This document shows positions 15,581 through 17,640 of a stretch of DNA of 64,000 nt, piece after piece; the stretch's first letter is position 1; each line of letters opens with the position of its first letter. The notes under the pieces were generated by a model. It had not been told where the DNA came from. It saw only the letters and a program-made list of their open reading frames with translations, and searched no databases. The translations under genes and the position numbers were made by a program. The DNA is from Garicola koreensis. Its GTDB lineage: Bacteria > Actinomycetota > Actinomycetes > Actinomycetales > Micrococcaceae. The DNA lies in contig NZ_JACIBT010000001.1 in assembly GCF_014195445.1 (NCBI RefSeq), forward strand, positions 372,001 to 436,000, in the 5' to 3' direction.

Positions 15581-16453
15581 TCACTCCGTGGCGAAGAAGG
15601 CGTCTTCCTGGTTGAGCATGCCCAGCTGGACACGGATGACGCCGTCATCATCTTCTGGCACCGCGAGGGCGATGTTTCCTGATTCGCTGCCGCCTTCAAA
15701 CAGTTCGGCGCTGCTGTCCAACGCGTCTGGGGCGACGGCCATCGAGTCGAAGGCTCCGACTGTCTCACCGCTGGAGGTCACGTAGTCGATGCTTACGCCC
15801 ATCATGACCATCTCTGATTCGCTGCCGCTGTATGTGACGTCGGCATTGATAAGAGCATAGGCGCTTCCTTCAGGTGCGGGCTCGTTGAACTGGTTCTCCG
15901 CTGCGACCTCGTCTGCCGCGTTCGGGGTGAACGAGTTGATGGTCACAGCCCAGTCACCAGCTTCGAAGGTCTCGCCAAGCTGCAGAGGGTTGTCCCTGCT
16001 GCCCGCGTCCCCGGAGGCTTCCGTGTCTTCCTCGGTACTGGATTCATCTTCGGAACTGGCCTCGTCGGCGGTTTCAGCAGCGTCATCCTCTGGTGCCTGC
16101 TCACTCTCTTCGGAGTTGTTGGTGGTGTCCTCCGAGTTCTGCACCTCCTCGTCGACAGCGGCGAAGAACGCGCCGGTAAGAGCGAAACCGATTAGCGCTA
16201 CTATTGCGCCGATTGCTCCGGTGATCACGCCGGCAATGCCCTGGCCACGGCCCCGTCGATTGATGAATGCGATGATTCCCAGCACTACGGCGAGCGGACC
16301 CAGAAAGAAGCTGAGCGTAGCAATGAACGGAATGAAGCCGAACACCAGTGCAATGATGCCCAAGACCATCGCTGCAATGCCCAACCCCTTCTTTGGCTGC
16401 TCCGGTGGTGCTCCAGGGGCGCCGGCAGGCGGGTACATGTCTTGCTGTGTCAT
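15581..16453 (-). CDS. DUF4190/DUF4352-like membrane-anchored protein
   Basis: A 290-residue protein in three parts. Residues 1-20 are Pro/Gly-rich, as in many DUF4190 proteins. Two or three hydrophobic segments follow (LGIAAMVLGIIALVFGFIPFIATLSFFLGPLAVVLGIIAF and GVITGAIGAIVALIGFALTGAFF, about 24-95). A strongly acidic Glu/Ser/Asp linker covers about 100-150, and the C-terminal 140 residues (LGETFEAGDWAVTINSF ... GVSIDYVTSSGE) resemble the beta-sandwich DUF4352 domain exposed outside the membrane. Function is unknown. GAGAGGA lies 8 nt before the ATG. It is transcribed alone, ending at a shared terminator with tRNA-Arg. Confidence 0.8.
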   Translation of the reverse strand: MTQQDMYPPAGAPGAPPEQPKKGLGIAAMVLGIIALVFGFIPFIATLSFFLGPLAVVLGIIAFINRRGRGQGIAGVITGAIGAIVALIGFALTGAFFAAVDEEVQNSEDTTNNSEESEQAPEDDAAETADEASSEDESSTEEDTEASGDAGSRDNPLQLGETFEAGDWAVTINSFTPNAADEVAAENQFNEPAPEGSAYALINADVTYSGSESEMVMMGVSIDYVTSSGETVGAFDSMAVAPDALDSSAELFEGGSESGNIALAVPEDDDGVIRVQLGMLNQEDAFFATE

Positions 16454-16781
16454 AAAAAGTTCCTCTCAGAACGCGAGTGATGGGAAGTAATCCAGTCGGT
16501 CGATACCGACACGGGTCACAGTAGGCATGGCCTCGGACACGACCGCTGTCACACCACTCAGATCAACCTTGACATTCCCTGTTTGCAGACTTCTTTAAAT
16601 CTGTGAAACGGGCCTTTCGGTTGACGAGAGCCGGGTGGGCCGCTGTAGGTAGCAGGACGAGGGCCGGATGCTGGTCAGTGTTCGGTGCGGTGCCACGATT
16701 CTCTCGGGAGCCTGGACTCTGTGGTCCTTGTGTCGCGTTCGGACTCGGTCTGTCACGGGCCGTACTCCGAGCTTCGGTGAT
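16454..16781. other. Gene-free stretch left of the candidate RNA unit
   Basis: About 330 bp with no supported gene. Short frames on both strands (for example a minus frame reaching 16973 and a GTG frame at 16603) lack conserved features. The left end is the leader of the DUF4190-like gene; I see nothing else I can name. Confidence 0.6.
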
Positions 16782-16810
16782 TTGAGCGTTCGGGCTCTGC
16801 GTACTATAGT
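16782..16810 (+). promoter_or_regulatory. Sigma-70-type promoter TTGAGC-N17-TATAGT
   Basis: -35 TTGAGC (16782-16787) and -10 TATAGT (16805-16810) are 17 bp apart, the optimum. Predicted start is about 16816-16818. No ORF follows before a terminator, so it should make a short RNA or the leader of the LysE gene. Confidence 0.7.
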
Positions 16811-16816
16811 GATCAG

Positions 16817-16931
16817 CGTCACAAGTTGTGCGGTTTGGTGACCGCGTTCCGCCGGAGCATAGGTGCCCGGCAGAACGCCTGGAGCCAGACTTGTCGTCAC
16901 CCCACCGGAACTGCTGGTGGGGTGACTTTTT
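16817..16931 (+). ncRNA. Candidate structured small RNA or attenuator leader upstream of lysE-like gene
   Basis: Between a good promoter and a strong terminator there is no ORF but clear pairing: ACAAGT (16821-16826) with ACTTGT (16889-16894) closes a junction; inside are GCGGT/ACCGC (16830-16845) and an adjacent arm GTTC-c-GCCGG with CCGGC-a-GAAC (16846-16876). An 11-bp terminator stem follows directly. I do not recognise the class. It could be a free-standing RNA of about 110 nt or a riboswitch-like attenuator for the exporter 29 bp downstream. The drawing is by eye, without energy calculation or covariation. Confidence 0.5.
16896..16931 (+). terminator. Intrinsic terminator before the LysE gene
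   Basis: GTCACCCCACC (16896-16906) pairs perfectly with GGTGGGGTGAC (16916-16926) around a 9-nt loop, followed by TTTTT. It lies 29 bp before the LysE GTG and after no coding gene. Confidence 0.9.
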
Positions 16932-16959
16932 CTGACGGGCCTTCTGCGATGATGATGCC

Positions 16960-17640
16960 GTGACATTGGGCACCTACCTGGCATTCGTCGGCGTCGCAGT
17001 GATCCTGGCGATCACACCGGGCCCCGACACGCTGCTCTCGCTGCGCTACGCGCTGGTGTCCAGGCGTGCCGGCATCTTCGCGGCCCTGGGCACCACATTC
17101 GGCCTGTTCATCTGGGCGGTGCTGGCCGCACTCGGGCTGGCCGCCCTCTTCGACGCCTCAGACAGCGCCTACTACATCGTCAGCCTGGCCGGCGGCAGCT
17201 ATCTGATCTGGCTGGGCGCACGCACCTCGCTGACGGCACGCGCCAGGTTCCGCGACGCCTCCGTCATCACCGCCTCCGGGGTGCAGCAGACCCAGCCGGC
17301 GTCCACCAAATCGGTGAAGGCTACCACCGCCTTCGGCGCCGGCATCGTCACCTGCCTCACCAATCCGAAGACCGGACTGTTCTTCCTCGCGCTGTTCCCG
17401 CAGTTCACCCCCAGAGAATCCGGGCCGCTGTTCGTCATCGCAGTACTGGGCGGAACCGTGGCCGCGGCCATTCTGCTCTACCTGCTGGGGCTGGTGCTCA
17501 TCGTCGACGCCGCCAACCGGTGGCTCTCCAACCCGCGGGTCACCGGCTGGATCGAACTGATCAGCGGGCTCACCCTGCTGGGCTTGGGGCTCTATATGAT
17601 CGCCACCGGGCTCTACGGGCTGCTCCCGCTGGTGCTCTAG
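16960..17640 (+). CDS. LysE/RhtB-family amino-acid exporter
   Basis: A 226-residue membrane protein with about six hydrophobic segments. The family signature near the N-terminus (AITPGPDTLLSLRYALVSRRAGIFAALGTTFGL) and the mid block TCLTNPKTGLFFLALFPQF are clear. Members export lysine/arginine, homoserine/threonine or similar solutes; the substrate here is unknown. Enlarged basic loop residues 95-115 separate the two halves. GTG start, with no Shine-Dalgarno sequence. A promoter, structured leader and terminator immediately upstream raise the possibility of attenuation control. Its stop is 67 bp before argS, and lysine and threonine synthesis genes follow, which fits an overflow-export role for aspartate-family amino acids (inference). 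Confidence 0.87.
   Translation: MTLGTYLAFVGVAVILAITPGPDTLLSLRYALVSRRAGIFAALGTTFGLFIWAVLAALGLAALFDASDSAYYIVSLAGGSYLIWLGARTSLTARARFRDASVITASGVQQTQPASTKSVKATTAFGAGIVTCLTNPKTGLFFLALFPQFTPRESGPLFVIAVLGGTVAAAILLYLLGLVLIVDAANRWLSNPRVTGWIELISGLTLLGLGLYMIATGLYGLLPLVL

Follow-up and report, generated by a model that had tools for sequence, protein, structure and literature searches.

The unit described here lies at 16782–16959 of the window, by which we mean the whole 64 kb stretch of DNA that was analysed. The genes around it are a tRNA-Arg gene, a minus-strand DUF4190/DUF5518-like gene, lysE, argS, lysA and hom, the last two being named by domains or by eye. The assembly from which the window was taken comprises 2.25 Mb in 27 contigs and is 80% complete. 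The elements of the unit and its two flanking genes are as follows.

15581–16453, minus strand: divergent gene, a neighbour, with weak DUF4190/DUF5518 similarity under both Pfam cut-offs
16782–16787, plus strand: −35 hexamer TTGAGC, from the promoter scan (TTGAC in four relatives)
16805–16810, plus strand: −10 hexamer TATAGT (TAATGT, TACTGT, TAATGT and TATTGT in the relatives)
16808–16823, plus strand: CRP/GlxR-like palindrome AGTGATCAGCGTCACA, spanning the −10 and the presumed transcription start
16816–16932, plus strand: body of the putative small RNA gene as modelled, with a presumed 5′ end
16820–16830, plus strand: small 5′ hairpin CACA/UGUG (CACG/CGUG in G005 and G012; poorly preserved in G016)
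16833–16890, plus strand: long interrupted arm, 22 modelled pairs, with both-side changes in 11
16838–16846, plus strand: conserved box GUGRCCGCG, forming the 5′ side of the internal loop
16877–16885, plus strand: invariant box GCCUGGAGC, on the 3′ side of this loop, without change in all five copies
16896–16931, plus strand: terminator from scan and fold, a 13-pair hairpin (16896–16926) followed by TTTTT
16960–17640, plus strand: lysE-type exporter gene (PF01810), a neighbour outside the RNA

The promoter TTGAGC-N17-TATAGT, claimed in an earlier note on this DNA, is present at 16782–16810, and the scan of 541 bases gave one such match, as compared with a mean of 0.1 in shuffled sequences. The same note had described an 11-bp terminator stem followed by five T. 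The hairpin and the TTTTT were found, but the scan counted 13 pairs in the stem. Because shuffles of the scanned stretch gave 0.5 terminator-type matches on average, the terminator match is unremarkable by count alone. The exporter start was located as claimed, with the T run ending 28 bases before the lysE GTG at 16960.

Plain blastn of the unit against 58 genomes, including the window's own, matched only the window's own copy, and therefore covariance models were needed. A model built from the window copy alone (R1) was searched over 30 genomes of the genus and matched three other Nesterenkonia genomes, G005 (E 2.2e-5), G016 (3.6e-5) and G026 (0.003). The terminator part of the G026 copy failed to align with R1, and a weak match in G013 (E 0.27) was left out. 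Each of these three copies is preceded by a similar promoter, which was absent from R1. A second model (R2), made from the four copies of the window, G005, G016 and G026, recovered the held-out G012 at E 5e-12, with the next best match among the 30 genomes at 0.035; the G012 copy likewise has a promoter and a terminator. When the promoter was included in the model (R3), the same five genomes were found at 4.6e-18 or below, and the next match was at 0.118. The carriers are thus five of the 30 genomes, with one strong match apiece. At a loose threshold of E ≤ 1, R1, R2 and R3 matched 5, 18 and 10 of the 30 genomes, respectively, and only the five stand apart.

The searches were extended to the family (395 genomes, R2) and the order (396 genomes, R3) under stricter filters, by which weak copies may be lost, and no convincing copy was found there beyond the five carriers. 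At E ≤ 0.1, R2 matched 11 of the 395 family genomes, the five carriers among them, and R3 matched two of the 396 order genomes, the window's and one at 0.06. The seven weak R2 matches in the six further family genomes (E 2e-4 to 0.09) were rejected; all seven fall within open frames longer than 120 codons, and the palindrome matches at only 4–5 of 10 positions. Weak extra matches of R3 in five genomes (G008, G002, G021, G020 and G064) were inspected, and one of two more in G028 was viewed. The match in G021 lies inside open frames. Those in G002, G020, G064 and G008 seem, as judged by eye, to score via the CRP-like site and the promoter and not via the RNA arm; their best palindromes match at 8, 8, 10 and 9 of 10 positions, respectively. 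The stretches in G002, G020 and G064 appear by eye to be other promoter-like sequences of the genus and family, in which a CRP-like palindrome lies near a −10-like sequence.

The stretch 16816–16932 folds at −65.8 kcal/mol (z −5.72), and none of 200 shuffles was as good; without the terminator, z was −3.60 and one of 200 shuffles was as good. This confirmed that the unit folds better than chance. The minimum-energy fold has a small hairpin at the 5′ end and a single long arm that is interrupted. Covariation was scored on an alignment of the five sequences fitted to the structure of R2, in which 90.8% of 130 cells pair and both sides changed in 13 of 26 base pairs. The covariation score was 0.454, as compared with 0.235 in shuffles that ignore relatedness; none of 500 shuffles reached 0.454, and the score was at most 0.127 when the partners were slid. 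The count of further pair types was less striking, being equalled by 21 of 500 shuffles. RNAalifold returned the same fold from the same alignment, with both-side changes in 12 of 25 pairs. A covariation test had been proposed in the earlier note, and its outcome favours a real RNA.

When the four relatives were folded singly, the lower arm and the internal loop formed in all four, and the tip and the 5′ hairpin varied, the latter being absent in G005 and different in G016. The G026 stretch folded alone gave only z −1.90, with 11 of 200 shuffles as good. The two sides of the closing stem that the earlier note had drawn around two stacked arms, ACAAGT (16821–16826) and ACTTGT (16889–16894), do exist, but they are unpaired with each other in the minimum-energy fold. 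This helix pairs in 50% of 30 cells over the five sequences, only four of 500 shuffles reach its covariation score, and it might conceivably form as a minor alternative pairing.

The two boxes in the arm, GUGRCCGCG and GCCUGGAGC, are nearly or fully invariant, with mean pairwise identities of 0.93 and 1.00 over the five copies. They face one another across the internal loop, and the flanking helices vary and covary. Such a layout of conservation is as expected for a structured RNA. A kink-turn needs a specific A in its internal loop; this reading of the loop was dropped because the required A is G in two copies. Antisense matches to the two boxes in the window did not exceed chance: for one box a single match was found where 2.15 were expected, and that match was the box itself, and for the other there were 7 against 4.81. 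Since the conserved letters sit in an internal loop and form no open seed, the RNA would more likely work with a protein partner, or reach its targets once the loop opens, than act through a simple hairpin-loop seed.

The unit had been claimed to hold no reading frame, which is not strictly the case: six open frames of at least 20 aa overlap 16811–16932, among them a 45-aa frame starting with TTG (16826–16963), a 35-aa frame starting with GTG (16828–16935) and two on the minus strand. The 45-aa frame runs across the unit and past the lysE start, and together with the 35-aa frame inside the unit it could be taken for a short protein-coding gene. The GC contents by codon position were 0.53/0.67/0.67 for the 45-aa frame, 0.66/0.54/0.71 for the 35-aa frame and about 0.6 throughout for the minus-strand frames, as compared with 0.62/0.51/0.90 for lysE, and thus the examined frames give no clear sign of coding. 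Pfam gave no match for the 45-aa frame or the two minus-strand frames. The two conserved 9-mers are 30 nt apart in the window and 28, 28, 27 and 28 nt apart in the four relatives, and therefore no plus-strand frame is kept in the relatives. Given these results and the strong covariation, a short protein-coding gene, or a structure that arose by chance, is hardly credible.

By alignment, each of the five copies has a TTGA(C/G) element paired with TAnnGT at a spacing of 16–17, and the consensus promoter scan is passed by only two of them, the window's and that of G012. A palindrome of the type TGTGA-N6-TCACA begins inside the −10 in five of five copies and matches at 9, 10, 9, 9 and 9 of 10 positions. 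When up to one mismatch is allowed, the window copy, AGTGATCAGCGTCACA, is the sole match over the 64 kb of the window, where 1.39 are expected. The mean pairwise identity is 0.84 for the −35 and 0.30 for the promoter spacer; it is 0.92 and 0.80 for the two halves of the palindrome and 0.45 for the N6 between them (0.34 without its first position). At the level of sequence, every one of the five copies thus carries a CRP-type palindrome that covers the −10 and the presumed start. The motif TGTGA-N6-TCACA is the E. coli CRP consensus, and the M. tuberculosis motif resembles it, according to the available part of one study (PMC4117774), in which CRP bound near the transcription start is associated with repression.

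A protein that might act on this site is encoded in the genus. The Crp-type protein of G012 is a GlxR/CRP orthologue close to PDB entries 3d0s and 4byy, which we take to be M. tuberculosis CRP and C. glutamicum GlxR, respectively, and orthologues of like sequence were found in G023 and G025. HTH_Crp_2 matches of 63–65 bits were obtained in 29 of the 30 genus genomes, including G005, G016 and G026, and the window's own genome is the one exception. In the window's assembly, at its 80% completeness, a GlxR orthologue was not found, and the best Crp-type match is a different protein. From the position of the site, the small RNA is probably repressed by a GlxR-type regulator.

A simple terminator scan is passed by three of the five copies (window, G005 and G012); in G016 the hairpin is longer and its T tail is short, and in G026 no terminator was found on the strand of the RNA within the 400 bases scanned.

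The set of neighbouring genes is different for each of the five copies. The next downstream gene in the four relatives encodes a Transgly_assoc-like protein (G005; under the Pfam cut-off), TadE/DUF4244 (G016), a P-type ATPase (G026) or a SpoIIAA-like protein (G012), and it is convergent, on the opposite strand, in all four, and therefore the RNA cannot act as a leader in them. The gene just upstream in G005 and G012 lies on the RNA's own strand, and therefore part of the RNA could come from read-through. A Transgly_assoc-type gene near the RNA in both G005 (0.1 kb) and G026 (2.5 kb) is the only hint of shared surroundings.

This arrangement bears on the proposal of the earlier note that the unit is a ligand-sensing attenuator controlling export, in which a sensed ligand would let the polymerase pass the terminator into lysE. 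The window itself is suggestive of such a cis-acting element: only 28 bases separate the terminator from the lysE start, no second promoter was picked up in the scan of 16460–17000, and the usual lysG regulator was not found in the window or, apart from a 24% identical protein, in the assembled genome (80% complete). Only in the window genome does lysE lie on the downstream side of the RNA, however, and in none of the four relatives does the RNA precede an exporter. A lysE-type match was obtained in 27 other genomes, and the lysE loci of 20 of these were examined; divergent lysG adjoins lysE in 16 of them, lies about 5.5 kb away in two, and is not in the fetched stretch in G005 and G002. The carriers G012 and G016 have lysE with adjoining lysG, and the RNA elsewhere in the genome. 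In the relatives, no such promoter/terminator unit stands before lysE, in agreement with an RNA that does not belong to lysE. No Rfam riboswitch exceeded the cut-off either. As a shared role, attenuation of export therefore finds no support, and we regard a cis-acting attenuator or riboswitch of lysE as very unlikely. The free-standing small RNA, which had been put forward as the other option, is favoured by homologues with promoter and fold at unrelated places.

A combination of the two is less remote. The RNA may be ancestrally stand-alone, as its presence elsewhere in the four relatives would suggest, and read-through of the terminator may now also supply lysE mRNA after loss of lysG; the placement before lysE, the single promoter found by the scan and the failure to find lysG in the window fit such a second function. 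It concerns a single genome with an incomplete assembly, and lysE may have an unrecognised promoter. A dual role is accordingly rather unlikely in our estimate, and a lineage-specific second role as a lysE leader in the window genome is possible. We give a similarly low weight to a fuller version, in which the RNA would be free-standing and structured but would not act by base pairing; its loop (GUGRCC facing CUGGAGC, between covarying helices) would bind a protein or a small molecule, a regulator of the cAMP-receptor type would silence it, and it would serve as a read-through leader of lysE after the loss of LysG.

The carriers are scattered on an argS tree of 29 of the 30 genus genomes, G025 being left out for lack of an argS match. 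The long branch of G016 on this tree probably reflects broken reading frames. In the G016 assembly, lysE, argS, lysA and hom are each split into several frames, which resembles uncorrected sequencing errors. G006 and G009, the sisters of G005, lack the RNA at the corresponding site, downstream of the same DUF1801 gene; a stretch with TTGTAC-type repeats was seen there instead. In the window's own assembly, a DUF1801-type gene and its identical printed 3′ sequence occur on two contigs (C14 and C19), as a duplication or an assembly artefact. The patchy distribution may mean that many lineages have lost the RNA, that it has moved, or that other copies have diverged too far to be detected. As for mobile elements, blastn against plasmids (window and G026 copies) and against phages (G026 copy) gave no matches. 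A loose pattern scan of viral contigs yielded at least 120 stretches, and R2 on 80 listed loci gave three matches, the best at E 0.043; there is no sign of a viral link among the matches listed, as far as these sequence searches reach.

Comparison of the five copies shows a promoter sequence of its own for each, a conserved predicted fold and differing neighbours. We therefore consider it likely that the unit is a gene in its own right, encoding a structured small RNA of some 110–120 nt, with its own promoter, a conserved fold and different neighbours from genome to genome. A GlxR-type (cAMP receptor) protein on the palindrome would block RNA polymerase; when the repressor lets go, the RNA would be made, as a signal of carbon or energy state, would end at its own terminator and would act in trans. 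On this stand-alone reading, the RNA would merely happen to lie just upstream of lysE in the window genome.

If so, a covariation-supported RNA family is added to a genus for which the literature searched, as far as its available parts go, describes no small RNA. A putative GlxR-type repressor on the promoter of the RNA offers a concrete control logic, and the conserved loop gives a precise handle for partner searches. The case also corrects a natural idea: a structured stretch beside an exporter need not be that exporter's switch.

With respect to known RNAs, the absence of a match to a known class stated in the earlier note was borne out. Rfam 15 was searched with the window at the gathering cut-off, the unit at E ≤ 10 and the G005, G016 and G026 loci at E ≤ 1, and only tRNAs reached the cut-off; the weak, chance-type matches in the window and the three relatives' loci were to unrelated families. 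The available parts of the literature on Nesterenkonia small RNA, Micrococcaceae small RNAs and Arthrobacter RNA motifs do not describe this RNA. Our best reading of the sequences is an undescribed small RNA, a new family of a known kind, probably repressed by a GlxR-type regulator.

Amino-acid riboswitches and attenuators share with the window a promoter, a structured stretch and a terminator before an exporter, and differ in that all four relatives have an oppositely oriented gene next downstream of the RNA. The 6S-like form is a long interrupted helix, and Ms1 is much longer than about 110–120 nt. Like these RNAs, the unit is a structured RNA of Actinobacteria with a long interrupted helix, and each carrier has one strong copy, as might be seen if it belonged to a known group of housekeeping or polymerase-binding RNAs, Ms1 or 6S for instance, and had diverged too far for Rfam. 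The RNA is, however, much shorter, has only sub-threshold Rfam matches to unrelated families, and is not tied to any one gene neighbourhood, whereas gene order served to trace Ms1, according to the available part of the source (PMC9130861). Membership of such a group is highly improbable.

Further parallels are small RNAs with CRP control or CRP sites. In E. coli, spf (Spot 42) is under CRP control. Likewise in Salmonella, CRP-cAMP represses spf, as stated in the available part of one report (PMC5991649). Spot 42 of enterobacteria resembles the present RNA as a free-standing small RNA gene, with CRP control established there and presumed here, where repression is suggested by the position of the site; the Rfam scans found no relationship between the two. 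If repression holds, the RNA may by analogy work like a CRP-controlled small RNA such as Spot 42. Also comparable are the M. tuberculosis small RNAs ncRv13843, ncRv11373 and ncRv13660c, each with a mapped upstream CRP site in the part of the study available (PMC4117774). These are likewise actinobacterial and are likened to the present RNA by the CRP site, not by sequence; their site lies upstream, whereas the Nesterenkonia site sits on the promoter itself.
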